From the NCBI RefSeq assembly GCF_004361735.1, contig NZ_SNVV01000001.1:186001-250000 (forward strand): 64,000 nt of DNA, in the 5' to 3' direction. Source of the stretch: Azoarcus indigens. GTDB taxonomy: Bacteria; Pseudomonadota; Gammaproteobacteria; Burkholderiales; Rhodocyclaceae. This document shows positions 3,309 to 45,153 of this stretch, piece after piece (the first letter of the stretch is position 1; each line of letters opens with the position of its first letter). The notes beneath the pieces were generated by a model. The model had not been told where the DNA came from and did no database searches. It was given only the letters and a program-made list of their open reading frames with translations. The position numbers and the translations under genes were made by a program.

Positions 3309-3325
3309 CCGGCACAACCTTTGCC
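3309..3325 (+). promoter_or_regulatory. Sigma-54 promoter, flavoprotein/ferredoxin pair 1
   Basis: The sequence CCGGCACAACCTTTGCC has GG and GC exactly ten bases apart. It matches the -24/-12 consensus TGGCACG-N4-TTGCW at 9 of 12 defined positions. The predicted start is about 3336, 56 bases before the ATG. Confidence 0.7.
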
Positions 3326-3391
3326 TGACACCCCGCTTCCCCATACGGCGCGCCGCTGTCCGCGTGCCGGAAAACGACAGAGAGAAGCGAG

Positions 3392-4960
3392 ATGCGAGAC
3401 GAAGCGGAATTGCGCCTGCAGGCGGACGTGCTGGTGATAGGCGGCGGGCCGGCCGGAGCGTGGGCGGCATGGAATGCGGCCAGGGCCGGGGCCAGGGTGG
3501 TGCTGGCGGAAAAGGGCTACCTCGGCTCCAGCGGCGCCACCGCGCCGGGCGGCACCAACCTGCTCTACCTGCCGCCGGATGCGGCATTGCGTGAAGCGGC
3601 GGTGCAGCAGCGCATGGAGGGCGGCGGCCAGCTCTCCGAGGCGCGCTGGATACACCGGGTGCTGGACCAGGTCTACGAAAGCCTGCAGCTGGTGGAAGCC
3701 TGGGGCTACCCCTTCCGCCGCGACGAGCACGGCGTGCCGCTGCGCGACCACCTGCAGGGGCCGGAGTACCTGAAGCTGATGCGCAAGGCGGTGCACAGGG
3801 CGGGCGTGCGCATCCTCGACCAGTCGCCGGCGCTGGAGCTGCTGGTGGACGAGCACGGCGTGGGCGGCGCCCGTGGCCTCAGCCGACTGGACGGCCGCCG
3901 CTGGGAAGTACGCGCCGGCGCGGTGGTGATCGCCACCGGCGGCTGCGCCTTCCTCAGCAAGGGCCTGGGCTGCAACGTGCTCACCGGCGAGGGCCTGCTG
4001 ATGGCGGCGGAGACCGGCGCCGAGCTCTCCGGCATGGAGTTCAGCCGTGCCTACGCCCCCAGCGCCGCCTTCGGCACCAACACCCGCGGCCGCACGCTGG
4101 GCTGGGCGAGCTACTACGATCAGCACGGCAAGGTGCTGCATGCAGGCGGCCCGCGCTCGCGCGACTTCCTCGCCAAGGCACTGCTGCAGGGGCCGGTGTA
4201 CGCGGTGCTGGACAAGGCCGACACGCCGGAGAAGCGCGCCATCCTGCGGCGGGCGCACGCCATCTTCTTCCTGCCGCTGGAGCGCGCCGGCATCGACCCC
4301 TTCACCCAGCCCTTCCCGCTGACGCTGCGCTACGAAGGCACGCTGCGCGGCACCGGCGGCCTGCGCCTGACCAGCGACGACTGCGCCACCAGCGTACCCG
4401 GCCTGTACGCCGCCGGCGACGCGGCCACCCGCGAGCGGGTATGCGGCGGCCTCTCCGGCGGCGGCGCCTACAACGCCTCCTGGGCGATCTGCTCCGGCAG
4501 CTGGGCCGGCCACGGCGCGGCGCTGCATGCGCTGGACGCACCGCGGGAACGCAGGCTGCGCCCGGCTGGCGGCGCCGGTCTGCGGCCAGTGCAGGGCAGC
4601 GCACCGATAGACAGCGCCGCCCTGGTCGCCGCGGTGCAATCCCAGGTGCTGCCGCTGGAGATCAACTACTTCCGCAGCGAAGCCGGCCTGCGCCAGGCGC
4701 TGGGCGCGGTGGACGCGCTGTGGCCGGAAGCCGGCGGACTGCCGGACACCCGCACACCGCAGGCAGCGCTGCGCGCCCGCGAGGCAGCGGCGATGGTCGC
4801 CGCCTCGCGCTGGATCTTCAACGCCGCGCTGGGGCGCAAGGAAACACGCGCCTCCCACACCCTGGCCGAGTACCCCGAACTGGACCCGGCGCAGCGCCAC
4901 CGGCTGATCGTCTCCGGGCTGGAGCGCATCGCGCTGCGTACCGAGCCGGTGCCGGCATGA
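3392..4960 (+). CDS. FAD-dependent oxidoreductase, AprA/fumarate-reductase-like (copy 1)
   Basis: A 522-residue soluble flavoprotein of the succinate dehydrogenase/fumarate reductase/adenylylsulfate reductase alpha superfamily. The FAD fingerprint GGGPAG is at residues 17-22 and the second FAD contact LYAAGDAATRERV at about 336. The helical C-terminus contains SRWIFNAALGRKETRASH, which recurs in the other three copies of this window. No signal peptide or transmembrane segment is seen, so it is cytoplasmic. It is followed after 139 bases by a two-cluster ferredoxin, the same layout as AprA-AprB. It probably passes electrons between FAD and the ferredoxin; the substrate is unknown. A sigma-54 promoter lies just upstream. 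Confidence 0.85.
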   Translation: MRDEAELRLQADVLVIGGGPAGAWAAWNAARAGARVVLAEKGYLGSSGATAPGGTNLLYLPPDAALREAAVQQRMEGGGQLSEARWIHRVLDQVYESLQLVEAWGYPFRRDEHGVPLRDHLQGPEYLKLMRKAVHRAGVRILDQSPALELLVDEHGVGGARGLSRLDGRRWEVRAGAVVIATGGCAFLSKGLGCNVLTGEGLLMAAETGAELSGMEFSRAYAPSAAFGTNTRGRTLGWASYYDQHGKVLHAGGPRSRDFLAKALLQGPVYAVLDKADTPEKRAILRRAHAIFFLPLERAGIDPFTQPFPLTLRYEGTLRGTGGLRLTSDDCATSVPGLYAAGDAATRERVCGGLSGGGAYNASWAICSGSWAGHGAALHALDAPRERRLRPAGGAGLRPVQGSAPIDSAALVAAVQSQVLPLEINYFRSEAGLRQALGAVDALWPEAGGLPDTRTPQAALRAREAAAMVAASRWIFNAALGRKETRASHTLAEYPELDPAQRHRLIVSGLERIALRTEPVPA

Positions 4961-5099
4961 GCTGGCGATCCACCCGCGCCGGTGGCCAAGGCCGTACGGC
5001 CGGCCGATCCGCACCGGTACCGCGCCTGTCCGCCCTCGTCCCCCATCGCCTGCGCCAGGCTTCACCCCAGGCCCGGCCCACCTTCCCAGGAAACGCCCG

Positions 5100-5498
5100 A
5101 TGATCGAACTCGTCAGCACCTCCCGCTGCACCGAATGCGGACTGTGCGTCCGCGTCTGCCCCACCAACGTCTTCGACGACCACGACGGCCTGCCGGTGAT
5201 CGCCCGCCAGCACGACTGCCAGACCTGCTACATCTGCGAGGTGTATTGCCCGGTGGATGCGCTCTACGTCGCCCCCTACGGCGATCAGGCGGTGACGGTG
5301 GACGAGGATGCCCTGGCCGCCGACGGCACCCTGGGCAGCTGGCGCGCCGCCATAGGCTGGGGGCGCAAGCGCGTCACCCTGGCGGCGCTGGACACCACGC
5401 CTTTCATCGACCGCATCCTGCCCTCGCAGCCGGCGCTGCCGGCGGAGGAAATCGCCTTCATCCTGGCTGCGCCGGCCAAGGAGCCGGCAGAGGCTTGA
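5100..5498 (+). CDS. 2x[4Fe-4S] ferredoxin, AprB-like (copy 1)
   Basis: A 132-residue ferredoxin with two complete CxxCxxCxxxCP motifs (cysteines 10, 13, 16, 20 and 40, 43, 46, 50), enough for two 4Fe-4S clusters. It then carries a roughly 70-residue tail with the sequence GSWRAAIGWGRKR, a motif shared with the other three ferredoxins here. The ATG at 5100 has AGGAAA upstream. It belongs to the same operon as the preceding flavoprotein and is its likely electron partner. The tail probably docks onto the flavoprotein, as the AprB tail does on AprA; that is inference. Confidence 0.88.
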   Translation: MIELVSTSRCTECGLCVRVCPTNVFDDHDGLPVIARQHDCQTCYICEVYCPVDALYVAPYGDQAVTVDEDALAADGTLGSWRAAIGWGRKRVTLAALDTTPFIDRILPSQPALPAEEIAFILAAPAKEPAEA

Positions 5499-5655
5499 AG
5501 TGCCCCGCTGCCCGCAGCCGGACGGCAGGACGATGATTCGCTTCGCGCTGCTGGCGCCAGCCAGGGGACTTTTGCGGCGCACCCAGCCCAGCGCCGGGGC
5601 CGGCTTCCCCCGGCGGCCTTTCTTCGCGGAGCACCAATACCGCTCGGCGAGGGGC

Positions 5656-5698
5656 GCAACACGCCCTCCCCGCGCAAGGGCCGGGGAGAGCGTGTTGC
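5656..5698. terminator. Bidirectional terminator-like hairpin
   Basis: Left arm GCAACACGC-C-CTCCCC (5656-5671) pairs with GGGGAG-A-GCGTGTTGC (5683-5698) around an 11-base loop. It lies between the convergent ferredoxin and nitroreductase genes. There is no clear T-run, so termination is inferred from position and stem strength. Confidence 0.5.
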
Positions 5699-5726: not shown

Positions 5727-6305
5727 TCACAGCACTTCGACAACCTGCTCGAAACCCAAGCGCTCCGCGCGCGGGGCGGGCGAGCCGGCAAGGCCGTAGC
5801 CGAGGTTGGCGATGAGGTTGACCCTGTAGCGGCCGTCCGGGAAGAAGGTCTGGTTCAGCAAGTCCGCGTTGAAGCCGCTCATGGGGCCGACGTCCAGGCC
5901 GAGAGCGCGGGCGGCGACGATGAGGTAGGCGGCCTGCAGCGAGCTGTTGCGGAAGGCGGTGGGGTCGACGAGCGCAGGATTGGCCTCGAACAGCTCGCGG
6001 ATCTTGGGGTTGGCCACATGTTCGAAGAAGCGGCTGTCCTGGGCGACGATGACCGTCACCGGCGCGGCCAGGGTCTTCTCCTTGTTGCCGGCGGACAGGG
6101 CTGGCTCCAGCCTGGCCTTGGCCTCGGCGCTGCGCACGAAGACGTAGCGGCCAGGCTGGGCGTTGAAGGCGGTCGGGCCCCATTTCAGCAGTTCGTAGAG
6201 CTGCTGCAGGGTTTCGTCGCCCACGGCGGTGGCTTCGAATTTGCCGTAGGTGCGGGCCTGCACGAAGAGCTGGTCGAGTGCGGCCTGGTGGAGGGGAGTG
6301 CCCAT
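5727..6305 (-). CDS. Nitroreductase family protein, RutE/malonic semialdehyde reductase-like
   Basis: A 192-residue FMN-binding nitroreductase-fold protein. The sequence LLKWGPTAFNAQPGRYVFVRS at about residues 38-58 (serine replaced by threonine in the usual SPSxxN loop) and the C-terminal NLIANLGYG are typical of the RutE/YdfG-linked subgroup. That subgroup reduces aldehydes, quinones or nitro groups with NAD(P)H. The ATG at 6305 follows CAGGAG. It is the last gene of the minus-strand cluster that starts with the TonB receptor at 14384. Its role there is likely reduction of an imported compound or its breakdown product. Confidence 0.85.
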   Translation of the reverse strand: MGTPLHQAALDQLFVQARTYGKFEATAVGDETLQQLYELLKWGPTAFNAQPGRYVFVRSAEAKARLEPALSAGNKEKTLAAPVTVIVAQDSRFFEHVANPKIRELFEANPALVDPTAFRNSSLQAAYLIVAARALGLDVGPMSGFNADLLNQTFFPDGRYRVNLIANLGYGLAGSPAPRAERLGFEQVVEVL

Positions 6306-6384
6306 GGTTTCTCCTGTTGGATGGGTATGGAAACGCGGGGGAAGATCCGGCCTCGCCGGCCGGGTTGGAAAGTCGGGAAGGCGT

Positions 6385-7485
6385 TCAGGCCACGGCCAGC
6401 GCCACGCCGCGGGAAGCCAGCAGCGCGCGGGCGTTGGCGCTGAAGATGCGCTCGCGCTGGGCGGGCTGCAGCGGCGCCCGCAGGATCTGGTCTATCACCG
6501 GCCGCACACTGGGCGCCGGCGCGTAGTCGGTGCCGAGGACGATGCGGTCCTCGCCCAGCACCCGCGCCGCCAGCGCGATGGCCTCGGCGCCGCGGCCGGC
6601 GGCGCCGGTGTCGAACCACAGCCGGTGGAAGCGGGCGCGCACCTCGTCCGCACCGGCGCCCACGCCCAGGCGCTCGGCGTTGAGCGCCACCTGCTCGGCT
6701 ACCAGGGCGATGGTGCCGGCGCCGCCCAGCATGGCGATCTGCACGGTGACGTCAGGGTAGGCGTCGAGGAAATCGCTGAAAGCCAGGGTGATGGCGGCGG
6801 CGGCGAAGCTCCAGCCGGTGTCCAGCAGCGCGCGGATCTCGGCGTTGTCGCTGTGCAGGTGCAGCGGCGGCTGGCCGGGCACCGAGGGGTGGGCGTAGCC
6901 GGTGTGCAGGTAGAGGTGGCTGCGGTTGCGCTGGGCGACCTCGAACAGCGGCCGGAAGCGCTCGGCGCCGGCCAGGCTGGTGAAGCCATTGACCGGCAGC
7001 ACGCCGCCTATCAACCCCAGCTCGGCATGCGCCCGCGCCAGCTCGCGCGCCGACCAGGCCACGTCCGAGCTGGACAGCGCCGCCACCGCGCTGAAGCGCC
7101 GCGGGTGGCGCCGCACCAGCGCGGCGAGGTCATCGTTGTAGGCGGCCCACAGCGGCAGGGTTTCCGCCGCCGGCAGCGCGGCGTCCACGCCCAGCGTGGT
7201 CGGCCAGGACAGCAGCTGGTGCGCGATGCCGTGGGTGTCCAGGTGGTCCAGCCGGGCGTCGATGTCGAACCACTGCGGCCCCACCGGGAAGGCCTCGGAG
7301 CGGCCGTGCGGCGTGCCGGGGCCGGCGCGGTGCAGGTGGCGGCGGCCATCTTCGCCGCCGACGAAGCGCGGCGCCACGCCACGGGCGCTCAGCAGTTCCA
7401 CCGCGCGCGGCGAGAACCAATGGCTGTGGAGGTCGATGAGGCCGCGCGGGGCGGCGGGCGGCGATGCGTCTGAAATCGTGCTCAT
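6385..7485 (-). CDS. Amidohydrolase family (ACMSD-like) protein
   Basis: A 366-residue metal-dependent TIM-barrel hydrolase or decarboxylase. Metal ligands are recognisable as HSH in LIDLHSHWF (about residue 17), a histidine in YLHTGYAHPS (about 190), and the aspartate in VLGTDYAP (about 310). This is the pattern of the amidohydrolase-2 group, which includes aminocarboxymuconate-semialdehyde decarboxylase. I chose the ATG at 7485, preceded by GAGGA, over the GTG two codons upstream. It sits between the ABC binding protein and the nitroreductase, suggesting it acts on the imported substrate. Confidence 0.82.
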   Translation of the reverse strand: MSTISDASPPAAPRGLIDLHSHWFSPRAVELLSARGVAPRFVGGEDGRRHLHRAGPGTPHGRSEAFPVGPQWFDIDARLDHLDTHGIAHQLLSWPTTLGVDAALPAAETLPLWAAYNDDLAALVRRHPRRFSAVAALSSSDVAWSARELARAHAELGLIGGVLPVNGFTSLAGAERFRPLFEVAQRNRSHLYLHTGYAHPSVPGQPPLHLHSDNAEIRALLDTGWSFAAAAITLAFSDFLDAYPDVTVQIAMLGGAGTIALVAEQVALNAERLGVGAGADEVRARFHRLWFDTGAAGRGAEAIALAARVLGEDRIVLGTDYAPAPSVRPVIDQILRAPLQPAQRERIFSANARALLASRGVALAVA

Positions 7486-7509
7486 GGGCACAGTCCTCTG
7501 GGCGGGGGG

Positions 7510-8688
7510 TCAGGTCGGCTTGGGGCGGAAGAAGATGTCGCGCAGCATGCCCCGCTGGGCTTCGAGATCGGCCACCAGGGCATCCGGCGGCGGGCTGCGG
7601 TGCAGGCGCCCGCGCTCGGCGGCGCTGCCGGGGTAGAAGGGCGGCGGCGGCGCGTCCGGCATGGTGCCGAGCTGGTAGGCCTGCTGCGCCACCGCCGCCT
7701 GGCCGCGCGGCGAAAACAGCCAGCTCTTCAGCAGCCGGGCGCTCGCCGGGTGCGGCGCGCCGCCGACCACGCCGAAGCCGAAGGGCACGTTCACCGAGAA
7801 GTCGGGCACGAAACGGATGGCCACCGGCGCGCCCAGCGCCCGCTGCCGCACCACCACCGCCAGGTAGCCCCAGGGGTTGAGCGCCAGCCGGCCCTGGCTG
7901 ACGTAGGTCACGCCGGCATCCGGCCCGGTGAACAGGCCGGCGCGGTGCAGCGCCTGCAAGCGCGGCCGATCCACCACGCCATCGCGCAGCAGGGTGGCGA
8001 AGGCGACGTCGGTGGTGCCGACGGCGGTCACCGGCTTGATGTAGGAGAAGCGGCCCTGCCAGGCCGGCGCCAGCAGCTCGTCGAAGCGCTGCGGCAGCGC
8101 ATCCGCTTCCACCTGCTGGCTGTTGTAGGCGAGGCCGAAGACCTTGGAGAAGGGGTAGTGGGCGCGGTCCGCCTCGTCTCGGTATTCATCCGCCAGCCCT
8201 TCGGCGCTGGCCGGGCGCCAGGGTTCGAAGTAGCCGCGGCGGGCGATCAGCGGCAGCACGTTCACCGGCTGCATCAGCAGGTCGCCCATGCGGTTGCCGG
8301 CCTGGCGCTCGGCGTCTATGCGCGACATCACCTGGGTGGGCGAGACGTGCATGTAGATCACCCGCAGGCCGGGGAAGTCCGCCTGGAAGGCCAGCCACAG
8401 CGGCTCCCATTCGGCATCCACCGCGGCGCCGTAGACCACCACGGTGCGCTGCCCGCCCTGCAGCGCCTCGCGGTACAGGCCGGCGAGTTCGTCGCGGGTA
8501 GCGGCGTTGCCGAACAGGGTGGCTTCGGCTGCTTCGGAAGTCTTAGCGCCCTGCCCTGCTCCGCCGCCCCCACCCTCCGCGCCGCAGCCGGCCAGCGCCC
8601 AGCCGGCGGCACCGGCGAGGCCGGCGCGCAGCAGGCGGCGGCGGCCGGCATCCGCATGGGCAAGGCCGGGGATGAAGAAGCGCTTCAT
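7510..8688 (-). CDS. ABC transporter substrate-binding lipoprotein (family 1)
   Basis: A 392-residue periplasmic binding protein resembling those for iron, thiamine or polyamines (FbpA/PotD group). The N-terminus has twin arginines in RRRLLRAGLAGAAG and a lipobox LAGC (about residue 30), so it is probably a lipoprotein, perhaps Tat-exported. A glycine-rich linker follows. The start at 8688 overlaps the ATPase stop (ATGA), showing translational coupling. Together with the ATPase and the double-domain permease it makes one importer. The ligand cannot be read from sequence. Confidence 0.85.
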   Translation of the reverse strand: MKRFFIPGLAHADAGRRRLLRAGLAGAAGWALAGCGAEGGGGGAGQGAKTSEAAEATLFGNAATRDELAGLYREALQGGQRTVVVYGAAVDAEWEPLWLAFQADFPGLRVIYMHVSPTQVMSRIDAERQAGNRMGDLLMQPVNVLPLIARRGYFEPWRPASAEGLADEYRDEADRAHYPFSKVFGLAYNSQQVEADALPQRFDELLAPAWQGRFSYIKPVTAVGTTDVAFATLLRDGVVDRPRLQALHRAGLFTGPDAGVTYVSQGRLALNPWGYLAVVVRQRALGAPVAIRFVPDFSVNVPFGFGVVGGAPHPASARLLKSWLFSPRGQAAVAQQAYQLGTMPDAPPPPFYPGSAAERGRLHRSPPPDALVADLEAQRGMLRDIFFRPKPT

Positions 8689-9881
8689 GCCGCCTCCGCC
8701 ACCGCGTCCAGCGCCGCGGCCGCTTCCGGCAGGATCACCGCGTCGCCCGGCGCCAGCGTCACATGGGCTTCGTGCCAGCCTGGCGGGTGATGCAGGTCGC
8801 CACGGCCATCCCAGGCGGCCAGCGGCAGGCTGGCGAGCAAGCGCTGGCCTTCCACCGTCACCTCCGCCTGGAAGCGCTCGCCCAGGTAGGCGATGGCGCC
8901 GGCGCGGGCGGCGAAGGCATTGGCCGCGCCCTGCGCCGCCACGCCGGCTTCCAGCCGCAGGTTGGCGCTGCGGAAGGCGAGCAGGCCGCGCTGGCCCACC
9001 GCCAGGGCGGCCGGCGCGCGGCCAACCACCTCGCGGCGCCATCCATCGGGGAGGAAGGAGGCGCGCTCGCCGTCGCGGCGGGTCAAGCGGCCGGGCAGCA
9101 GGTTGTCGAAGCCGACGAACTCGGCGACGAAGCGGGTGGCCGGCGACAGGAAGATCTCGGTGGGCGTGCCCAGCTGCTCCAGCCGGCCCAGGCGCATCAC
9201 CGCCACCCGGTCGGCCAGCGCCAGCGCCTCCGCCTGGTCGTGGGTAACGTAGATGGAGGTGCCGCCGGCCTCCTCGTGCACCCGCCGCAGGTCCTGCCGC
9301 AGGCGCTGGCGCAGCTGGGCATCCAGGTTGGACAGCGGCTCGTCGAACAGCAGCAGGCTGGGCCGCGCCACCACCGCCCGCGCCAGCGCCACCCGCTGCT
9401 GCTGGCCGCCGGAAAGCTCGGCCGGGCCGCGGCCCTCCAGCCCGTCCAGGCCGACCAGCTCCAGCGCCGCGCCCACCTCGCGCGCCAGCTGCTCGCGCGA
9501 CAGGCCCTTGCGCCGGTGGCGCAGCGGATAGGCGACGTTGTCGAACACACTCATGTGCGGCCACAGCGCATAGCTCTGGAACACCATGCCGATGGCGCGC
9601 TTCTCCGGCGGCACGAACAAGCCCGCCGCCGGATCGGCGACCACGCCGCCGCCCAGCGCGATGCGGCCGGCGGAGGGTTCCTCCAGCCCGGCGATGCAGC
9701 GCAGCGTGGTCGTCTTGCCGCAGCCGCTGGGGCCGAGCAGGACGAAGAATTCGCCGTCGCGTATCTCCAGGTCCAGGCCGTCGATGGCGCCGCGCTTGGG
9801 CGCGGTGGTGACCCGCTTGCCGGCGGCGAAATACTTGCGCAGGCCCTGCAGGCTCACGCCACTGCCATTGCTTGCTGTCAC
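8685..9881 (-). CDS. ABC importer ATP-binding protein (FbpC/PotA type)
   Basis: A 398-residue ATPase with Walker A GPSGCGKT (about residues 53-60), Q-loop, signature LSGGQQQR (about 155), Walker [13 protein letters not shown] (about 175), and the H-loop histidine in [10 protein letters not shown]-terminal TOBE-type regulatory domain occupies about 260-390. The start codon is GTG at 9881 with AGGAG upstream. It energises the permease encoded just before it and is coupled to the binding-protein gene after it. Confidence 0.92.
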
Positions 9882-9935
9882 TTCTCGGATGCTCCTGTGG
9901 GAAATCGGGGAATCGGGGTGTTCATCGGCATGGCC

Positions 9936-11744
9936 TCAGGCGGAAGCCGCCGCCGGGCGGGAAAGCGGCGCGCCGCTGCCGCCGGCAAGCACGCCCAGCA
10001 GGCGGCGACGGCGCTGGCTGCGCACCACCACCCAGGCGCGGTAGCCGGCCCAAGCGATGCCCCAGATGGCCGCCTTGGCCAGCAGCAGGATCACCAGCAG
10101 CGCCGAGGCGGCGGAAAAGTCGCCGGAGGAATACAGGCTGTACACCACCGAGGAGATCGGGTTCAGCCCCGGCGCGCGCAGCAGCAGCGGCACCTCCAGG
10201 TTGCCGGAGACGATGATGGCGGCCATGAACCAGCCAGCGAGGAAGCTGGGCGCGATCAGCCGCAGCACCACGTCGATGGCGGCGCGGAACGGCGAGGCGC
10301 CGGCGATGCGGGCGGCCTCCTGCAGTTCCGGCGACAGCTGCGCCACCGAGGCGTTGGCCACCTGGATGGCGAAGGGGGTGACCACCACCACCAGCGCCAG
10401 GGTGACCAGCCAGAAGCTGCCGTAGAGCTGCTTCAGCCCCGGCACGCTCACCACCGCCCAGGACACCGCCAGCGCGGTCACCACGCCCGGCATGGCCAGC
10501 GGAATCAGGCTGACGAAGCGCAGCAGCGCCGCCCGCCGCGGCGGCAGCGCCCGCGCCAGCAGCGCCACCGACACCGCCAGCGCCATCGCCGCGAAGCCGG
10601 ACAGCAGCGCCACCGCGAAGGTGGTCTGGATGGCGTCCACCACCCGCGGCAGCGCCAGGATGTTGCGGTAGTGCTGCAGCGAATAGCCTTCGTAGATGCC
10701 AGGGAAAGGCTGGAAGGAGGAGAACACCACCGAGCCTGTCGGCAGGATGGCCGCCAGCAGGAGGTAGAGCCCCACCAGCGCCGCCAGCGGCCAGCGCGCG
10801 CGGCCCAGGCGGATGCGGCGGCGGCCGCCGCTCTTGCCGGCCACGGTGACGAAGCTGCGGCGCCCCAGCAGGCGCGACTGCAGGATGCACAGCAGCGCCA
10901 CCACCGCCAGCAGGGCGATGGAAAGCACGCTGGCGCGGGCGTAGTCCGGCGGTGCGGCGCCGTTGATGAAGCTCATGATGCGGGTGGCGACGACGTCGAT
11001 GTCCTGCGGCCAGCCCAGGATCAGCACCATGTCGAAGGCCTGCAGGCCGGCCACCACGCCGAGCAGGATGGCGCCGGTGATGGCCGGCGTCAGCGTCGGC
11101 AGGTCGATGCGGAGGAAGGTGCCGAACTGGCCGACGCCGGAGACCAGCGAGGCGTCGTTGTGGCTGGGATCCAGCGCGCGGAAGGGGCCGATGAGGAAGA
11201 GATAGATCACCGAGGCCTTCTTCAGCACCATCACGGTGATCAGGCCGGTCCAGGTCTCGACGTCGAACCAGGCGGCGCCGGCGCCGAACAGGGTCTGCAG
11301 CAGCTTGTTGGCCGAGCCGGTGTAGGCGTTGCCCAGCATGGCGTAGCCCAGGGCATAGAACAGCGCCGGGGTGGCGAACATCAGCATCAGGCAGGGGGTG
11401 ACGCCGCGCCGCAGCGGCAGGTCGGTGCGCTCGGAGAGAAAGGCCAGGCCCGCGGCGATCAGGGTGGCGGCCAGGGTGCTCACCAGCGACAGCACCAGCG
11501 AGTTGCCCATCGCCCGGCCGGTACCCGGGCTGTCGAAGGTGCCGGTCCACGCGGCCAGCGTCCACGCCCCGTCGAAGCCGGGCGCGGCGGAACGGAAGGA
11601 ACCGGCCACCAGCATCAGCACCGGCCACACCAGGATGAAGAACAGCGCCGCATACAGCGCCAGCCGGGCCAGCGGCCAGCGCCGCCGCGGGCGGAAGTTG
11701 GAAGGCGGCAGGCGCAGCGCGCCGGCCGGGGTATCTACTGACAT
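9936..11744 (-). CDS. ABC importer permease, double-domain FbpB type
   Basis: A protein of about 602 residues holding two copies of the binding-protein-dependent permease domain, roughly residues 20-290 and 310-590, with about twelve hydrophobic segments. Such fused permeases are usual for ferric-iron and related family-1 importers. The ATG at 11744 is preferred over 11780 because the N-terminal cytoplasmic segment then has normal length; the upstream ribosome site is weak. It is followed by the ATPase gene 54 bases later. Confidence 0.88.
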   Translation of the reverse strand: MSVDTPAGALRLPPSNFRPRRRWPLARLALYAALFFILVWPVLMLVAGSFRSAAPGFDGAWTLAAWTGTFDSPGTGRAMGNSLVLSLVSTLAATLIAAGLAFLSERTDLPLRRGVTPCLMLMFATPALFYALGYAMLGNAYTGSANKLLQTLFGAGAAWFDVETWTGLITVMVLKKASVIYLFLIGPFRALDPSHNDASLVSGVGQFGTFLRIDLPTLTPAITGAILLGVVAGLQAFDMVLILGWPQDIDVVATRIMSFINGAAPPDYARASVLSIALLAVVALLCILQSRLLGRRSFVTVAGKSGGRRRIRLGRARWPLAALVGLYLLLAAILPTGSVVFSSFQPFPGIYEGYSLQHYRNILALPRVVDAIQTTFAVALLSGFAAMALAVSVALLARALPPRRAALLRFVSLIPLAMPGVVTALAVSWAVVSVPGLKQLYGSFWLVTLALVVVVTPFAIQVANASVAQLSPELQEAARIAGASPFRAAIDVVLRLIAPSFLAGWFMAAIIVSGNLEVPLLLRAPGLNPISSVVYSLYSSGDFSAASALLVILLLAKAAIWGIAWAGYRAWVVVRSQRRRRLLGVLAGGSGAPLSRPAAASA

Positions 11745-11791
11745 GGGTTCCAGCCTTGATGCTGTTCGGATGAATTGCATGTGCGGCCCTT

Positions 11792-11827
11792 GCCGCCATT
11801 GCCGCCATTACGGCCATTACGGCCATT
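11792..11827. repeat. Four 9-bp tandem repeats
   Basis: Four direct units (GCCGCCATT twice, then ACGGCCATT twice) lie between the permease gene and the TonB receptor gene. They are of simple-sequence type and could vary in number. No promoter was recognised in them. Confidence 0.7.
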
Positions 11828-11894
11828 ACGGCCCGCCCTCCCCCGCGCGGGAGAGCGGCGGGCCGGGGCCGCAGCGCGGGCGATGCCGCCCGCA

Positions 11895-14384
11895 TCAGAA
11901 GATGAAGTTGGCCCCCGCATACACGAAGCGGCCGGACGCCCCGTTCGGTGCGATGAAGGAGTACGGGTTGATGCCGCTGGCGCGGTTGGTGGTGTCGTAC
12001 TTGTCCGGGTACTTGTTGAACAGGTTCTGCGCGCCCAGCTCCAGCCGCAGGTTGCTGGTGATGCGGTAGCCGAGGTTGAGGTCCACATACCATTCCGGCG
12101 AGAAGGTCTGGTCGTGGTTGCCGTTCACCGCGCCGGCGGCGGCGTTGTAGGTGTATTCGCCGTAGCGCGTCACCGTGGTGTCCACCGTCCAGTCGCGGTA
12201 GGTGTAGCGGCCGCCCAGCACCAGCTTGTTCTTGGGCACGCCGTCCTCGATGTCGCGCACGCGGTAGTCGTTCACCACCGTCACCGTGGTGCCGTTCACC
12301 GTCACCGTGTCCTTCACGTTGCTGGCCTTGGTGCGCAGGAAGCTGAGGCCGAGGCTGAGGTCCAGCACGCCGGCGCCATCGAAGCGCAGCTTCTTGCGGC
12401 CGACGAAGTCGATGCCTTTGGTGGTGGTGTCCCAGCCGTTGAAGTAGTAGCTGGCCTGGGTGTAGCCGTTCAGGCCGATGCCGTTGAAGGCGCTGGTGAC
12501 GCCGGCGCCGCGCAGGGCGTCGGTGATGATCACCTGGTCCTTGATCTTCAGGTAGTAGGCATCCACCGTCAGCGAGGTGGTGGAATCCGGCGTGAACACG
12601 AAGCCGAGGGAGACGCTGTCGGACTTTTCCGGGTCCAGCGACTTGGCGCCGAACACCGCCGCCAGCGGATCGTCCGGCCGGAACTGGCGGGTGCGGCCGG
12701 GTTCGGCGAGGCCCAGGCCGGTGTTGGTCCAGTTGCTGGTGAAGGCGGTGGTCTGGGTGCCGAGCTGGCCCAGGCTGGGGGCGTGGAAGCCGGTGCTGAC
12801 GGTGCCGCGGAAGGCCAGCGCCTTGTTCACCTCGTAGCGGCCGGAAACCTTGCCGTTCACCGTATCGCCGAAGTCGGAATAGTCCTCGTAGCGGCCGGTG
12901 ACGCCGATCTGGAGTTTCTCGGTGATGTCGGTTTCGAAGCCGAGGTAGGCGCCCTTGACGTTGCGGTCCACCGTGCCGCCGTCGATCGGCATCAGGCCGG
13001 CGGAGCTGGAGGCGGTCACCGGGATGCCGTTGCTGGAGTTGGAGAGGCCGCCGTTGGTGTAGGAGGCTTCGTCGCCGAAGGAGTCTATGCCCCAGGTTTC
13101 GCGCCGCGTCAGCAGGCCGGCGTTGATCAGGATGGGCGCCGGCGCCCAGCTGGGGCTGATGCTGCGCACGTAGTCCGCCGTCACGCTGGTCTGGGTGGAG
13201 CGCCAGCCGCCCATGTCGAAGGTGGTCGGGCTGGCCGCGCCCCAGCTCGGGTTGGTGGTGTCCAGGCCCTTGATCCAGGTGACGTTCTCGCCCCAGCTCA
13301 CGCCGATGTCCAGCTTGCCGGTGGCTTCCTCGCCGAAGCGGTAGCCGAGCACGCCGGCCCAGTCGGTGGAGTAGTAGTTGCGCCGCGGCTGGTAGCCGTT
13401 GGGGTAGATGGCGAGGTTGTTGGAGGTGTTGTCGCGGATGAGGTCGCCGGGCAGCCCGGTGCCGATGACGAGGCGCTCCGGGTTCACATAGTTGCCGGTG
13501 CGCTTGTCGGCGTAGTTCACCCAGGCGTAGGCGGTGCCATCGCCCAGCTTCAGCTCGGAGTTGGCGAGGAAGCTGAAGTTTTCCCGCGAGGCCTGGCCCC
13601 AGTGGCCGTAGTCCTTGTCATAGGTCTGGTTGCGGGCATCGCCTGTGGGGAAGAGCTGACGCCAGTCGTCCTCGGCGCGGTCCACCTGGCCGCTCTTGAG
13701 GTAGTCGAAGCTGAGGTTGACGAAGCCGGCGTCCTGGCCGAGCTGGAAGCCCTTCCAGCCATTCACCGCATGGGTTTCGCCGCCGCCGTCGGTGTAGCCG
13801 CCGTAGCGCACGTTCACCGCGCCGCCCTCGGCGGCATCGTTCAGCACGATGTTGATGACGCCGGCAATGGCGTCGGAGCCGTACTGGGCGGCGGCGCCAT
13901 CGCGCAGCACTTCGACGCGGGCGATGGCGCTGATGGGGATGGTGTTCACATCCACCACGTTGTTCGCCGGCCACGGGTCGGTGCCCTGCAGCAGCGCCTG
14001 GGTGTGGCGGCGCTTGCCGTTCACCAGCACCAGCGTATAGGCCGGGCTGACGCCGCGCAGCGAGGCGGAGCGGGTGGCCTGGCCCTTCACCGCGTTCTGG
14101 CCCTGGGAGAAGTTGAACGAGGGGTGCAGCTTGCTCAGGGCCTGGTTCAGCGTTACCGCGCCGGTTTCTTCCAGCTCGCGGGCGCTGATCACTTCCACCG
14201 GGGCCGAGCTCTTCAGCGTGGTCTGGTCCTGGCGGGAGGAGCCCAGCACCACCACCGCATCCAGCCGGGCGGAATCCTCGCCACCGGCCTCGGCCGCCCG
14301 CGGCACCTGCTGCGCATGGGCCGCCGGGATCATGGCGCTGCAAAATGCCGCAATCGCGGTCAGCGCAAACTTTTGCATATACAT
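11895..14384 (-). CDS. TonB-dependent outer-membrane receptor 1
   Basis: An 829-residue receptor. It has a signal peptide (cleavage near AHA-QQ, about residue 24), a plug domain (LDAVVVLGSSR through the LRGVSPAYTLVLVNGKRRH and VEVLRDGAAAQYGSDAIAGVINIVL motifs, about 40-170), and a long beta-barrel ending in the C-terminal phenylalanine expected for outer-membrane insertion. No FecA-type signalling extension is present. A strong sigma-54 promoter and an enhancer-like dyad precede it. It heads a minus-strand cluster with an ABC importer, amidohydrolase and nitroreductase, so it probably brings their substrate across the outer membrane. Confidence 0.93.
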   Translation of the reverse strand: MYMQKFALTAIAAFCSAMIPAAHAQQVPRAAEAGGEDSARLDAVVVLGSSRQDQTTLKSSAPVEVISARELEETGAVTLNQALSKLHPSFNFSQGQNAVKGQATRSASLRGVSPAYTLVLVNGKRRHTQALLQGTDPWPANNVVDVNTIPISAIARVEVLRDGAAAQYGSDAIAGVINIVLNDAAEGGAVNVRYGGYTDGGGETHAVNGWKGFQLGQDAGFVNLSFDYLKSGQVDRAEDDWRQLFPTGDARNQTYDKDYGHWGQASRENFSFLANSELKLGDGTAYAWVNYADKRTGNYVNPERLVIGTGLPGDLIRDNTSNNLAIYPNGYQPRRNYYSTDWAGVLGYRFGEEATGKLDIGVSWGENVTWIKGLDTTNPSWGAASPTTFDMGGWRSTQTSVTADYVRSISPSWAPAPILINAGLLTRRETWGIDSFGDEASYTNGGLSNSSNGIPVTASSSAGLMPIDGGTVDRNVKGAYLGFETDITEKLQIGVTGRYEDYSDFGDTVNGKVSGRYEVNKALAFRGTVSTGFHAPSLGQLGTQTTAFTSNWTNTGLGLAEPGRTRQFRPDDPLAAVFGAKSLDPEKSDSVSLGFVFTPDSTTSLTVDAYYLKIKDQVIITDALRGAGVTSAFNGIGLNGYTQASYYFNGWDTTTKGIDFVGRKKLRFDGAGVLDLSLGLSFLRTKASNVKDTVTVNGTTVTVVNDYRVRDIEDGVPKNKLVLGGRYTYRDWTVDTTVTRYGEYTYNAAAGAVNGNHDQTFSPEWYVDLNLGYRITSNLRLELGAQNLFNKYPDKYDTTNRASGINPYSFIAPNGASGRFVYAGANFIF

Positions 14385-14502: not shown

Positions 14503-14519
14503 AGCGGAAACCGTGCCAG
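14503..14519 (-). promoter_or_regulatory. Sigma-54 promoter of TonB receptor 1
   Basis: Minus-strand CTGGCACGGTTTCCGCT keeps GG-N10-GC and matches 10 of 12 defined consensus positions, including a perfect -24 block. The predicted start is about 14492, 108 bases before the ATG. Confidence 0.8.
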
Positions 14520-14579: not shown

Positions 14580-14597
14580 CTGCTGCCTGCGCAACTG
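14580..14597. promoter_or_regulatory. Candidate sigma-54 activator site (enhancer)
   Basis: The dyad CTGCTG-CCTGCG-CAACTG is centred about 97 bp upstream of the predicted start of the TonB receptor message. It shares the CTGYTG-N6-CARCAG pattern found before the other sigma-54 promoters, with one mismatch. Confidence 0.55.
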
Positions 14598-16436: not shown

Positions 16437-16445
16437 CGCGGCCCC

Positions 16446-16838
16446 TCAGTGACGGTTGATGCCGTTGGCGTAGCTTTCGCTGCGATGCAGATCCTGCGGG
16501 CTGCCGGGGTGGCCGCGCTGTATCGCCGGCGCCGCCCCTGCGCGGGCGTCCAGCTCGCCGGGCTTGCGCTGGTCCCAGCCCAGGGCGCGGCGGAAGGCGC
16601 CGATGCGGCCGTCGGCCAGCAGCTGCGCGGCATCCAGGCCGGGCAGCGGATAGGCTTCCGGCGCCACGTAGAGGGCATCCGGCGCGCAATAGGCCTCGCA
16701 CAGGAAGCAGCTGCAGCAATCCTGCTGGCGGGCGACGTAGGGCAGGCCGTCGCCGTCGGCCTCCAGCACGTCGTTGGGACAGACACGCACGCAGGCAAGG
16801 CAGCGCACGCAGCGCGGCTCGAGTATCAGTTCGATCAC
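16446..16838 (-). CDS. 2x[4Fe-4S] ferredoxin, AprB-like (copy 2)
   Basis: A 130-residue ferredoxin. The two cluster motifs are CVRCLACVRVCP and CCSCFLCEAYCA; the final proline is alanine here but all eight cysteines are present. I set the start at the GTG at 16838, since VIELILEPRC then aligns with the MIEL/MIEY starts of the three sister ferredoxins; the ATG at 16943 lies upstream of the predicted sigma-54 transcription start and cannot be used. The tail contains GAFRRALGWDQRKPGEL, like its paralogues. It forms an operon with the following flavoprotein. Confidence 0.82.
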   Translation of the reverse strand: MIELILEPRCVRCLACVRVCPNDVLEADGDGLPYVARQQDCCSCFLCEAYCAPDALYVAPEAYPLPGLDAAQLLADGRIGAFRRALGWDQRKPGELDARAGAAPAIQRGHPGSPQDLHRSESYANGINRH

Positions 16839-16873
16839 TTCTCGCGGTTCCGGCAGTGGAAAAGCGCGGATTC

Positions 16874-16890
16874 CGCAAGGGGCGTGCCAA
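16874..16890 (-). promoter_or_regulatory. Sigma-54 promoter, ferredoxin/flavoprotein pair 2
   Basis: Minus-strand TTGGCACGCCCCTTGCG is a near-perfect -24/-12 element (11 of 12 defined positions, GG-N10-GC exact). The predicted start is about 16863, 25 bases before the GTG start codon. Confidence 0.88.
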
Positions 16891-30549: not shown

Positions 30550-30600
30550 CACTGCCGTCCCCCGACGGACCTCCCCTTCCCCCAGCCACGGAAACTCCCG

Positions 30601-34291: not shown

Positions 34292-34308
34292 GCTGTGGTT
34301 TTCCCTGT

Positions 34309-34596
34309 TCAGGCGCGGCGCGCGCCCGGCGCCCAGCCGATGGTGCGCACATAGCTGCCGATGAAGCCGCGCGCTTCCAGCTCGTCGGCGGAGAGGCCGG
34401 ATTCCGGCGTGGAATAAGGCGACACGTAGAGCGCCTCGGTGGGGCAATACACCTCGCACAGGAAACAGGTATGGCAGTCGGCCTGGCGGCCTATCGCCGG
34501 CAGGTCGCCGGGCACGGCCTCGAAAACTTCGTTCGGGCAGACCTGCACGCACTTGTCGCAGCGGATGCAGCGATCATCAAGTATCAGTTCGATCAT
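34309..34596 (-). CDS. 2x[4Fe-4S] ferredoxin, AprB-like (copy 3)
   Basis: A 95-residue ferredoxin, the shortest of the four. The cluster motifs are CIRCDKCVQVCP and CHTCFLCEVYCP, all eight cysteines present. The tail holds only the shared FIGSYVRTIGW motif and ends soon after. The start is the ATG at 34596, aligning MIELILDDRC with the paralogues. It is followed directly by its flavoprotein and preceded by a sigma-54 promoter. Confidence 0.88.
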   Translation of the reverse strand: MIELILDDRCIRCDKCVQVCPNEVFEAVPGDLPAIGRQADCHTCFLCEVYCPTEALYVSPYSTPESGLSADELEARGFIGSYVRTIGWAPGARRA

Positions 34597-34669
34597 CGGC
34601 GGGAGAGAACGGCGCCGCGCTGGAAGCCGCCGGGATGGCCCTTCGACAGACGCGGTTTCCCGAGCGGTC

Positions 34670-34685
34670 AGCCAGAACCATGCCA
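34670..34685 (-). promoter_or_regulatory. Sigma-54 promoter, ferredoxin/flavoprotein pair 3
   Basis: Minus-strand TGGCATGGTTCTGGCT has GG-N10-GC and matches 10 of 12 defined positions. The predicted start is about 34659, 63 bases before the ferredoxin ATG. Confidence 0.78.
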
Positions 34686-34757
34686 TCCCGCAGAATCAAG
34701 GAGTTGGCCTCATCCCAGCTACCGAGGTGATGAGTACGCAGCAGTTTCGCGCCGCGG

Positions 34758-34775
34758 CTGCTCCGGATTCAGCAG
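34758..34775. promoter_or_regulatory. Candidate sigma-54 activator site for pair 3
   Basis: CTGCTC-CGGATT-CAGCAG has one mismatch to the shared dyad and is centred about 108 bp upstream of the predicted pair 3 start. Confidence 0.5.
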
Positions 34776-34866: not shown

Positions 34867-34884
34867 CTGCTGCCGAAGCAGCAG
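34867..34884. promoter_or_regulatory. Candidate sigma-54 activator site for pair 4
   Basis: CTGCTG-CCGAAG-CAGCAG is a full-score dyad, centred about 146 bp upstream of the predicted pair 4 start. It lies between the two divergent flavoprotein operons and could serve both. Confidence 0.6.
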
Positions 34885-34993: not shown

Positions 34994-35010
34994 CTGGCAG
35001 GCTTTATGCG
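34994..35010 (+). promoter_or_regulatory. Sigma-54 promoter, flavoprotein/ferredoxin pair 4
   Basis: CTGGCAGGCTTTATGCG keeps GG-N10-GC and matches 9 of 12 defined positions. The predicted start is about 35021, 80 bases before the ATG. Confidence 0.65.
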
Positions 35011-42363: not shown

Positions 42364-42384
42364 CTGCTGCTGCAACAGCAGCAG
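42364..42384. promoter_or_regulatory. Candidate sigma-54 activator site before the fusion gene
   Basis: CTGCTG-CTGCAA-CAGCAG is a full-score dyad inside a longer perfect inverted repeat (CTGCTGCTG-CAA-CAGCAGCAG). It is centred about 110 bp upstream of the predicted start. Confidence 0.6.
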
Positions 42385-42454: not shown

Positions 42455-42471
42455 CAGGCACAGGACTTGCC
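42455..42471 (+). promoter_or_regulatory. Sigma-54 promoter of the hydrolase-nitroreductase fusion
   Basis: CAGGCACAGGACTTGCC has GG-N10-GC and a perfect TTGC block (9 of 12 defined positions), very like the pair 1 promoter. The predicted start is about 42482, 122 bases before the ATG. Confidence 0.65.
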
Positions 42472-42603: not shown

Positions 42604-43929
42604 ATGAGCCTCCAACGCCATCTGCATTCCTCGCCGCGCGGCGAGCTGCCTTATCTGCGTGCCGTCGCCAGCGGCAATCCGCCTTCAAGCCCGCTGGTGG
42701 TACTGCTGCACGGCGCGCGCGACCGTGGCCGTGATCCGGAGAAGCTGCTTGCCCATGGTCTGGGGCGGCATGTTTCCCAGGCGGCGGAGCGGCCTTACCA
42801 CTTTCTTGCCTTGCAGATTCCGGAGGAGACCGCCTGGGCGGACTGGGAGGACGAATTGCTGGCGCGGCTGGATGCGGTGATCGCCGAGGCCAATGTGGAC
42901 AAGCAGCGCATCGTGCTGGCCGGCTTCAGTGCCGGGTCGGCGGCGGTGTGGCACTTCGCCAGCCGTCATCCGGAGCGCTTCGCGGCGCTGGTGGTGGTGG
43001 CGGGCCGGCTGCCGGAGACGGTGATCGACGATGGCCTGGCTGCGCTGAAGCGCACGCCGGTGTGGGTCTTCCACGGCGGCCGGGATGAGCGGGTGCCGGA
43101 GAGCCAGTTCCGCGCCGATCTCGCCCGCCTGCAGGCGCTAGGGCTGCCGGTGCGCGTCACCTTCTACCCGGATGCGGATCACTTCATCTCGGATGCCGCC
43201 TACAGCGATCCGGCGCTGCAGCGCTGGCTGGCCAGCGTGCCGCGGCGCACGCCGGGCGCGGCGCGGCTGGCCCATGGCGACGCCGATCCGCTGTTCGTGA
43301 ACCGCTGGTCGCCGCGCGCCCTCAGTGGCGAGGCGATAGACGACGCCACCCTGTTCCGCCTGCTGGAAGCCGCGCGCTGGGCGCCCTCGGCCAGCAATTC
43401 CCAGCCCTGGCGCTTCATCTATGTGAAGAACGGTTCGCCGCAATGGGCCGAGCTCTCGACGCTGCTCTCCGACAGCAACCGCCTGTGGGCGCCCAAGGTG
43501 TCGGCGCTGGTGCTGCTGCTCTCCCGCACCACCTTCGTCCGGCCGGGCGAGAGCGATCCCAGCCCGGCGCGCAACCACAGCTTCGATGCCGGCGCCGCCT
43601 GGGCCCACTTCGCGCTGCAGGCCAACCTGGCCGGCTGGCATACCCGCGCCATCGCCGGCTTCGACAAGGAAGCCGCGCGCTCCCTGTTCGAGGTGCCGGA
43701 GGACTACAAGCTGGAGATCCTGATCGCTGTCGGCCAGCTAGGCGACGAGGCCGAATTGCCGCCGCAGCTGCGCGAGCGCGAAACCCTCACCCCGCGCCGG
43801 CCGCTGGCCGACCTGGTGGCCGAAGGCCGCTTCTTCTTCCCCAACGATGCCGCCCCCGGCACGCCCGTCGGCGCCAGCCGCGGCCAGACCGCCGCCGCCG
43901 CGGGCACGCTGGTCGGCACCACCGGCTGA
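42604..43929 (+). CDS. Alpha/beta hydrolase - nitroreductase fusion protein
   Basis: A 441-residue protein of two joined enzymes. Residues about 1-215 form a carboxylesterase/phospholipase-like alpha/beta hydrolase with nucleophile serine in GFSAGS (about 102), acid in HGGRDERVP (about 163) and histidine in PDADHF (about 195). Residues about 235-425 are a nitroreductase with the FMN/substrate loop RWAPSASNSQPWRF (about 258-271) and a late NLAGWHTRAI. All hydrolase catalytic residues appear intact. The frame runs through without stop, so the fusion is real. It probably hydrolyses and then reduces one compound in the sigma-54 regulon. An SsuB-like ATPase follows on the same strand. Confidence 0.85.
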   Translation: MSLQRHLHSSPRGELPYLRAVASGNPPSSPLVVLLHGARDRGRDPEKLLAHGLGRHVSQAAERPYHFLALQIPEETAWADWEDELLARLDAVIAEANVDKQRIVLAGFSAGSAAVWHFASRHPERFAALVVVAGRLPETVIDDGLAALKRTPVWVFHGGRDERVPESQFRADLARLQALGLPVRVTFYPDADHFISDAAYSDPALQRWLASVPRRTPGAARLAHGDADPLFVNRWSPRALSGEAIDDATLFRLLEAARWAPSASNSQPWRFIYVKNGSPQWAELSTLLSDSNRLWAPKVSALVLLLSRTTFVRPGESDPSPARNHSFDAGAAWAHFALQANLAGWHTRAIAGFDKEAARSLFEVPEDYKLEILIAVGQLGDEAELPPQLRERETLTPRRPLADLVAEGRFFFPNDAAPGTPVGASRGQTAAAAGTLVGTTG

Positions 43930-43941
43930 GCGCAGTGCAAG

Positions 43942-43972
43942 GATGCGACGGCCTGCGAGACGCCGTCGCATC
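43942..43972. other. Intergenic hairpin
   Basis: GATGCGACGGC pairs with GCCGTCGCATC around a 9-base loop, 12 bases after the fusion gene. There is no T-run, so it could be a message-stabilising hairpin or partial terminator before the ATPase gene. Confidence 0.5.
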
Positions 43973-44085
43973 GGGCAATACGATCGCGCCCAAGGCCATG
44001 CCACTCCAAGACCGCCCCCTCAAGGCCGTCCTCCCCTCAAGGCGTACTCCCTTCAAAGCCGCGGCACACCCAGCAAGGACACTCG

Positions 44086-44976
44086 ATGAGCAGCCTCACC
44101 CAGCCCCCACCGCCCGCCGCCCAGCCCATTCCGCTGCGCCCTCACTTCAACCTGCAGGCCGCCGGCCTTGTCGCGGAGGGCGAGCGCGGCCAGCGGCCCG
44201 GCTCCGCCAGCGCCCGGGCCGAGGGGCAAGGCAGCTTCATCCTCGAGCTCGATGGCGTCGGCAAGACCTTCCAGGTGGATGGCCAGCCGCTGGAGGTGCT
44301 GCGCGGCATCGACCTGCAGGTGAAGCCGGCGGAGTTCGTCTGCCTGGTGGGCGCTTCCGGCTGCGGCAAATCCACCATCCTGCGGCTCATCGTCGGCCTG
44401 GACTCGCCCTCGGCCGGCCGGTTGGCGGTGGCCGGCAAGCCGGTGGATGGGCCGGGGCGGGACCGCGGCATCGTGTTCCAGGAGCACCGCCTCTTCCCCT
44501 GGCTGACGGTGGAGCAGAACGTGCTGCTGGGGCTGGATGCCATCGCCCTGCCGGAGGCGGAAAAGAAGCGCGCGGTGGCGGAGCACATCCGCCTGGTGGG
44601 GCTGAGCGGCTTCGAGAAGGCTTTCCCCAGCCAGCTCTCCGGCGGCATGTCGCAGCGCGCGGCCATCGCCCGCGGGCTGGTGGCGCGGCCGCAGATATTG
44701 CTGCTGGACGAGCCGCTGGGCGCGCTGGATGCCCTCACCCGCACCTACCTGCAGGAAGAGCTGCTGCGCATCTGGGAGCAGAACCGCATCACCACCATCA
44801 TGGTGACGCACGACGTGGAAGAGGCGGTCTACCTCTCCGACCGGGTGGTGGTGCTGGACCCGCGGCCGGGCCGCATCCGCACGGTGATCGACGTGGATCT
44901 GCCGCGCCCGCGCGCCCGCGGCAGCGCTGCCTTCGCCGCGGTGAAGGACGCGGTGCTGAGCGAACTCCGCCACTGA
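44086..44976 (+). CDS. ABC importer ATPase, SsuB/TauB type
   Basis: A 296-residue ATPase of the nitrate/sulfonate/taurine class. After a roughly 45-residue nonconserved start come Walker A GASGCGKS (about 87), the Q-loop VFQEHRLFPWLTVEQNVLLGL (about 127), signature LSGGMSQR, Walker B LLLDEPLGALD, and the H-loop in VTHDVEEAVYLSDR. AAGGA precedes the ATG. No permease or binding-protein gene is nearby; the ATPase-less sulfonate-type importer at 28.4-31.7 kb is the natural partner. Confidence 0.9.
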   Translation: MSSLTQPPPPAAQPIPLRPHFNLQAAGLVAEGERGQRPGSASARAEGQGSFILELDGVGKTFQVDGQPLEVLRGIDLQVKPAEFVCLVGASGCGKSTILRLIVGLDSPSAGRLAVAGKPVDGPGRDRGIVFQEHRLFPWLTVEQNVLLGLDAIALPEAEKKRAVAEHIRLVGLSGFEKAFPSQLSGGMSQRAAIARGLVARPQILLLDEPLGALDALTRTYLQEELLRIWEQNRITTIMVTHDVEEAVYLSDRVVVLDPRPGRIRTVIDVDLPRPRARGSAAFAAVKDAVLSELRH

Positions 44977-45000
44977 GGCGCCAACGCGCCCCCGGCAGGG

Positions 45001-45018
45001 CTGTTGCTAGCGCAGCAG
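45001..45018. promoter_or_regulatory. Candidate sigma-54 activator site before tonB
   Basis: CTGTTG-CTAGCG-CAGCAG is a full-score dyad flanked by GGG/CCC and nearly identical to the site at 28171. It is centred about 155 bp upstream of the predicted start. The extended repeat (44995-45024) could also act as a terminator hairpin for the ATPase gene. Confidence 0.58.
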
Positions 45019-45136
45019 CCCTGCTCCCCCGCCTGACTCCCCACCATCACCCAGGCACGTCCAGCCTTCCGCCCCAACCAGCGCAAAACCCTTTTCCGAC
45101 AAGCGCTTGCACCTCCCGCCCCGCGCCGGCGCCCGA

Positions 45137-45153
45137 CTGGCACGAAGCCTGCT
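45137..45153 (+). promoter_or_regulatory. Sigma-54 promoter of tonB-exbB-exbD-exbD
   Basis: CTGGCACGAAGCCTGCT has a perfect -24 block, GG-N10-GC, and 11 of 12 defined positions. The predicted start is about 45164, 60 bases before tonB. Confidence 0.85.

Follow-up and report, generated by a model that had tools for sequence, protein, structure and literature searches.

A putative SfnR-type sigma-54 regulon of unusual gene content in a 42-kb island of an Azoarcus-related genome

Background

Nine short motifs that resemble sigma-54 promoters are spread over 42 kb of a 64,000-nucleotide stretch of the Azoarcus indigens genome (contig NZ_SNVV01000001.1, positions 186,001 to 250,000; hereafter the window, with coordinates counted from its first letter). 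The question raised by this region, which we call the island, is whether the motifs define one regulon and, if so, what that regulon serves. Sigma-54 promoters require an activator, usually bound upstream. An earlier note on this DNA had taken the nine sites, together with the only sigma-54 activator gene of the window, to indicate an undescribed, multi-operon uptake and redox system. The source genome (5.46 Mb, G+C about 70%, from an Azoarcus-related organism) encodes 22 strong sigma-54 activators and two rpoN genes. A common activator therefore needed separate evidence, which is provided by an enhancer dyad shared by most of the promoters.

In the following sections, we describe the sites, the dyad, and the genes that they precede. 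We consider it quite probable that all nine sites are genuine sigma-54 promoters and that at least seven of the units are co-activated by the SfnR-type activator of the island, which likely binds TGYTG-N6-CARCA. The island is best read as an SfnR-type regulon for organosulfur scavenging.

Results

All nine GG-N10-GC sites named in the earlier note were found within one base of the coordinates it gave, minus-strand sites having been cited there by their low ends. Their consensus scores, in order along the window, are 9, 10, 11, 10, 10, 10, 9, 9, and 11 of 12, as claimed. With a position weight matrix (PWM), the sites and scores are as follows: 3310..3325 (+, 11.7) before flavoprotein/ferredoxin pair 1; 14503..14518 (-, 11.1) before the TonB receptor 1 operon; 16874..16889 (-, 14.75) before ferredoxin 2/flavoprotein 2; 23206..23221 (+, 11.55) before the operon of ABC exporter-type protein 3 and MFS transporters; 28263..28278 (+, 16.4, the window maximum) before the sulfonate-type importer; 34670..34685 (-, 13.0) before ferredoxin 3/flavoprotein 3; the weak site 34995..35010 (+, 9.1) before flavoprotein 4/ferredoxin 4; 42456..42471 (+, 12.6) before the hydrolase-nitroreductase fusion; and 45138..45153 (+, 15.6) before tonB-exbB-exbD. 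Below, each site is named by its first base on its own strand. Five of the top eight PWM scores in the window belong to this set. The genes had been placed 25 to 125 bases from the sites; counted between the motif's end and the start of the longest open reading frame (ORF), the distance is instead 36-166 bp for six sites. Sites 16889-, 34685-, and 45138+ fall within over-long ORFs, so the true gene starts must be further downstream.

Consensus matching could not serve as a test by itself, since the window has, on both strands together, 53 GG..GC sites with at least 9 of 12 positions; the significance of the nine sites rests on their position and not on their consensus score. In the gap test, the PWM was run in the direction of the adjoining gene over all gaps of 60 bp or longer, with a threshold of at least 11; the background consisted of 315 such gaps taken from 800 kb elsewhere in this genome. 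Gene-facing sites were found in 8 of the 20 gaps of the island, in 10 of the 34 of the whole window, and in 15 of the 315 of the background (Fisher p = 1e-5 for 8/20 against 15/315); that is, good matches are not equally numerous in other gaps. The eight positive island gaps contain seven of the listed sites and 41783-, which faces a doubtful ORF in a low-G+C stretch, and the gaps of 23206+ and 34995+ went unscored because over-called ORFs hid both. The pattern TGGCAYGN4TTGCW, with at most one mismatch, has 126 matches in the genome (38 for a backward control), five of them in the window; this count is supportive and weaker than the gap test.

The earlier statement that unrelated genes of the window carry no such site is not strictly right, since three off-list sites also score. 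The first, 813-828 (+, PWM 15.3), falls within the 5' extension of an over-called alcohol dehydrogenase ORF and has no enhancer dyad; the second, 62094-62109 (+, 11.6), stands before ORF 62144-62836, beyond the island; and the third, 56399+, which precedes the groES/groEL ORFs, scores lower than both (10.4). A further match, 26397- (15.8), was rejected as antisense within an MFS gene (25376-26623).

The gaps were aligned to G003, a relative of the same genus. Across the nine sites, all 142 aligned bases are identical (14 of 14 at 3310+ and 16 of 16 at each of the other eight), and outside the sites identity is 74-90% in the six gaps that align over a long stretch. The 3310+ gap contributes just 66 further aligned bases (64 identical) and the 16889- gap 20 (18 identical). 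From per-gap rates of identical 16-mers, the chance of such identity is about 6e-7 for the eight comparable sites, the 16889- gap having yielded no 16-mer comparison. The weakest listed site, 34995+, is fully kept despite its low score. An alternative site, 34974-, was set aside, as just 12 of its 16 bases are conserved.

The activator gene (21633..22841, -) encodes a bacterial enhancer-binding protein (bEBP) of 402 aa with the domains Sigma54_activat (59-221), AAA lid (227-297), and HTH_8 (342-380). Pfam found no N-terminal sensor domain, and about 58 residues precede the AAA+ domain. It is indeed the single sigma-54 activator of the window. When its homologue from Pseudomonas aeruginosa PA7 is compared with this genome, the window activator ranks first, with 414 bits against 251 for the next match. 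Note that PA7 has two neighbouring homologues, and that the PA7 protein is called SfnR on the strength of its MsuE-family neighbour and not of an annotation. The helix-turn-helix region is alike in the activators of Thauera, Polaromonas, Rhizobacter, Methylophilus, and Pseudomonas taiwanensis, the five readable named ones. The SfnR of P. putida is reportedly CysB-regulated, going by the title of a 2003 paper by Endoh.

Dyads were sought in the 260 bp that precede each of 21 candidate promoters; 11 of these belong to the window, 813 and 44993 among them, and 10 to relatives. The dyad CTGTTG-N6-CAACAG, with at most two mismatches, is present in 14 of the 21 upstream regions and in 1 of 314 background regions, a contrast that is optimistic because many dyads were searched. 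Its core, TGYTG-N6-CARCA, has eight copies in the window, seven of which are spread over five gaps of the island, at distances of 60-191 bp upstream of 23206+, 28263+, 34685-, 34995+, 42456+, and 45138+. Together with 14518-, whose dyad has a single mismatch, these six promoters with exact copies bring the number preceded by a dyad to seven of nine. None of the eight core copies in the 800-kb background has a sigma-54 site scoring at least 9 at a distance of 60-191 bp.

The individual dyads are also largely conserved in G003. The candidate for the TonB receptor 1 operon (14580..14597) has one core mismatch, stands 70 bp upstream of its site, and keeps 17 of 18 bases, the change being in the spacer. 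Two dyads between the activator gene and the exporter operon (23106..23154, exact cores at 23107 and 23138) stand 60 and 91 bp upstream of 23206+ and keep 18/18 and 17/18 bases, the change again being in the spacer. The importer operon has an exact CTGYTGN6CARCAG at 28171..28188, 83 bp upstream and kept at 18/18. The divergent pairs 3 and 4 have in common an exact dyad at 34867..34884 (18/18), which is 191 bp from 34685- and 119 bp from 34995+; a second candidate in this gap, 34758..34775, has one mismatch here and is exact in G003. Before the hydrolase-nitroreductase operon, two overlapping exact dyads (42364..42384; 80 and 83 bp upstream) are fully kept, and two G003 differences in the exact dyad of the tonB operon (45001..45018; 128 bp upstream) preserve the consensus.

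Several other sites were compared with the dyads. A weak sigma-54-like site directed toward the activator gene (22991-23006, -; score 9.2) is kept in G003 and paired with both dyads at 23106..23154, a hint that the activator may regulate its own gene through 23006-. Site 44993+ was rejected as having no dyad upstream. The exact 16-mer of 16889- recurs in the same genome (contig C14, near 126337; L229, position 1853), where the surrounding 4 kb are dyad-free.

Genome-wide, the core dyad has 64 copies in 5.46 Mb, compared with 18 for the backward control. We examined 46 of the 56 copies outside the window: 41 are in coding DNA and five in gaps. A sigma-54-like site accompanies five of the 46; four of these sites are intragenic, and the fifth, in a gap, is weak. 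A wider regulon was sought among these 46 and none was found, and twelve places outside the window with the exact 18-mer have no sigma-54 site. As far as examined, the predicted regulon appears to be restricted to its own island. The literature searched, which did not cover the main SfnR papers, gave no DNA site for SfnR, and we do not claim the dyad as new.

The dyad was then validated on 80 named loci around activator relatives, none of which had been used for its discovery. A single one, L069, overlaps the window, and no pair occurs in it. A dyad paired with a sigma-54 site of score 12 or more occurs 87 times in 45 of the 80 loci; eight control dyads gave 0, 12, 0, 0, 0, 0, 1, and 0 pairs in the same loci. 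Another 16 loci, of which five had contributed to the discovery set, hold 8 pairs, spread over 5 loci, against 0-2 for the controls. A downstream gene is supported for 69 of the 87 promoters, which gives 67 distinct genes in 16 clusters, and the ten cluster representatives that were annotated cover 61 of these genes. Representatives match sulfur families for 38 of the 67: SfnB/DszC-like (12 genes), MsuE FMN reductase (12), SsuD-like (9), SsuA-like (3), and sulfate-binding (2). The MsuE representative, whose cluster includes the PA7 locus, and the sulfate-binding one are above curated cut-offs. The other annotated clusters are PSCyt2/PSD1 (8), two unknown families (5 and 4), secretory-lipase-like (4), and DegP-like (2). 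The PSCyt2/PSD1 (DUF1549/DUF1553) genes follow dyad and sigma-54 pairs in eight named loci (L089, 1365-3704, and seven similar); to our knowledge, this family has no sulfur role.

Operons of the island type also occur in other genomes. In two genomes of the same genus (G001 and G002), the activator, tonB, exbB, and exbD genes are side by side, with a dyad and sigma-54 pair between activator and tonB. In G016, of the same family, the activator accompanies importer genes, a nitroreductase, an MFS transporter, ABC exporter-type protein 3, and the hydrolase-nitroreductase, and pairs stand before the binding-protein genes and the hydrolase-nitroreductase. In G261, of the same order, it is found close to a methyltransferase-flavoprotein-ferredoxin operon and another whose last genes are those of an importer, with a pair at each. 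A close match to flavoprotein 2 was found in 12 of 399 genomes drawn from the order, this genome included, with at most three candidates scored per genome.

The genes of the island are as follows. Flavoprotein 1 (3392-4960, +) and ferredoxin 1 (5100-5498, +) match Pfam FAD_binding_2 and Fer4. From their order and strand, the Pfam-assigned genes at 5727..14384 (-) for TonB receptor 1, a fused ABC permease, an ATPase, a binding protein, an amidohydrolase, and a nitroreductase probably form a single operon. Ferredoxin 2 (about 16446-16880) and flavoprotein 2 (14814-16436) occupy 14814..16880 (-). ABC exporter-type protein 3 and two MFS transporters follow at 23257..28108 (+), and the importer, comprising two ABC permeases and an SsuA-like binding protein (Pfam BPD_transp_1, NMT1), at 28444..31680 (+). 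Ferredoxin 3 (34309-34686, start uncertain) and flavoprotein 3 lie at 32642..34686 (-), flavoprotein 4 at 35101-36759 (+), and ferredoxin 4 at 36744-37208 (+). The hydrolase-nitroreductase fusion and an ABC ATPase are at 42604..44976 (+), and the tonB, exbB, exbD operon (tonB start uncertain; Pfam TonB_C, MotA_ExbB, ExbD) is at 45107..47705 (+). Directly after the activator gene, ahead of two exporter-type ABC proteins, is a folE2-type GTP cyclohydrolase (20833-21636, -), an odd companion for a sulfur regulon. Between receptor 2 and the hydrolase-nitroreductase operon, the stretch 40000-42000 has a G+C content of 0.50 against about 0.70 and carries a DUF1493 ORF; it was perhaps acquired.

The four flavoproteins, each beside a ferredoxin, are 41-55% identical to one another, and the pairs resemble AsfA/AsfB. 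AsfA and AsfB are a reductase/ferredoxin pair required for aromatic sulfonate use in P. putida S-313, complementing ssu, and such pairs, like sulfonate importers, are described components of organosulfur use (PMC4267179). Cupriavidus metallidurans CH34 carries on its megaplasmid a pair to which pair 1 is 52% (flavoprotein) and 54% (ferredoxin) identical and which is probably the asfAB listed in PMC2864759, the record itself being unannotated. An attempt to name pair 1 AsfAB through database names failed: AsfA is absent from the names shown for 120 listed of 4244 flavoprotein 1 homologues. Besides Azoarcus- and Thauera-like proteins, the closest named relatives listed are from Paenibacillus and Cohnella (about 70-73% identity, against 52% for Cupriavidus), which suggests that flavoprotein 1 moved between phyla.

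Discussion

The earlier proposal of one sigma-54 regulon is well supported by the shared dyad and by conservation in G003; sites 3310+ and 16889- belong to it by promoter type and proximity only. The sulfur role would follow from the activator, the dyad, and the gene families taken together.

A number of findings weigh against this interpretation. The PWM weights and the consensus were set from general sigma-54 frequencies and not derived from measured promoters. In the validation loci, 35 of 80 have no dyad and sigma-54 pair, one control dyad still yielded its 12 pairs, and four of the 45 paired loci are close Methylophilus relatives that appear in several clusters, so that the counts are inflated and not independent. 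The SfnB-like, SsuD-like, and SsuA-like matches are below curated cut-offs, and 29 of the 67 downstream genes are in clusters without a sulfur-named family or are unannotated. Of the 12 flavoprotein-pair loci from other genomes, that of G261 carries an exact dyad and sigma-54 pair and that of G401 a near one, and for the other ten no pair was found within the 14-25 kb seen; dyad control of such pairs is therefore not general. Around the canonical ssuD, which lies elsewhere in the genome (contig C18; 623 bits, over the cut-off), the surrounding 4 kb contain no dyad or sigma-54 site, nor is either found near two weaker ssuD relatives. In addition, none of the island genes scanned could be recognised as encoding a C-S cleaving monooxygenase.

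The alternative that survives best, to which we give a real if minority chance, is mixed control, in which the activator runs the clear-dyad operons only and 3310+, 16889-, and perhaps 14518- are served by others of the 22 strong activators that the genome encodes. No recognisable dyad was found within 260 bp of 3310+ and no clear one at 16889-, and the core at 14518- has its mismatch; all of this fits such a division. However, these three promoters share the island and precede paralogous genes, and the dyad at 14518- is conserved at 17 of 18 positions with its change in the spacer, which argues for common control.

A second alternative, which we think improbable, is that the island serves metallophore or other TonB-linked uptake instead of sulfur, its core being the exporter-type ABC proteins, the receptors, TonB-ExbBD, and a siderophore-interacting protein (SIP). 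The island and window do hold two TonB receptors, three exporter-type ABC proteins, and a SIP-family gene at 51198-51992. Against this, the SIP gene is outside the promoter set, the binding protein is SsuA-like, the flavoprotein/ferredoxin pairs are AsfAB-like, and the dyads of activator relatives stand before MsuE, SfnB-like, and SsuD-like genes. Chance occurrence of the nine motifs in G+C-rich gaps, as the 53 window sites at 9/12 and the strong coding-DNA match 26397- might suggest, is hardly credible given the gap enrichment, complete conservation, and dyad pairing.

Compared with known systems, this predicted organosulfur-scavenging regulon of the SfnR type would be unusual mainly in its genes. 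Like the Pseudomonas SfnR regulons (sfn, msu), the island has a sensor-less sigma-54 activator, probably of the same group, and the same dyad and sigma-54 pair occurs at the PA7 locus before an MsuE-family gene. Unlike them, it has no SfnG, MsuD, or SsuD match among the genes scanned; instead, four flavoprotein/ferredoxin pairs, its own TonB-ExbBD, TonB receptors, exporter-type ABC proteins, and the hydrolase-nitroreductase are found in 42 kb. The asfRABC locus of P. putida S-313 and relatives also combines a flavoprotein beside a ferredoxin with sulfonate-type transport, whereas the island has four paralogous pairs, sigma-54 promoters with a bEBP, and no LysR regulator (AsfR) among the annotated neighbours; no window protein scanned, some small ORFs being outside the scan, matches the LysR family. 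Similarly, the NMT1/SsuA-like binding protein and two BPD permeases resemble the SsuABC/TauABC importers, but the binding protein scores 142.7 bits with TIGR01728, below the SsuA cut-off of 163.5, and the ATPase lies outside the importer operon. The word "undescribed" was therefore too strong, in view of the PA7 homologue and of the described sulfonate importers and AsfAB pairs; what does stand is that the gene content is unusual.

The regulon may work as follows. Sigma-54 RNA polymerase would wait as a closed complex at the island promoters. A shortage of sulfur would lead to synthesis of the sensor-less activator, which would then occupy the dyads and, by looping and ATP hydrolysis, bring about promoter opening, so that the units are expressed together. 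Organosulfur compounds, the putative substrates, would enter by a TonB-dependent receptor energised by the island's own TonB-ExbBD, and the sulfonate-type ABC importer would carry them across the inner membrane. The AsfAB-like pairs and the hydrolase-nitroreductase would then release the sulfur. In its fullest form, which we regard as speculative and rather doubtful, this would be a self-contained regulon with one island-confined dyad, an organosulfur line from outer membrane to cytosol with its own TonB motor, in which the four pairs are C-S cleaving reductases for different sulfonates and not SsuD helpers.

Conclusion

The dyad offers a testable handle on sensor-less sigma-54 activators across beta- and gamma-proteobacterial records, and it turns a list of genes into a predicted regulon. 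In this organism, four paralogous flavoprotein/ferredoxin pairs under predicted common control, together with a dedicated TonB system, would provide a setting in which the chemistry of such pairs may be dissected.

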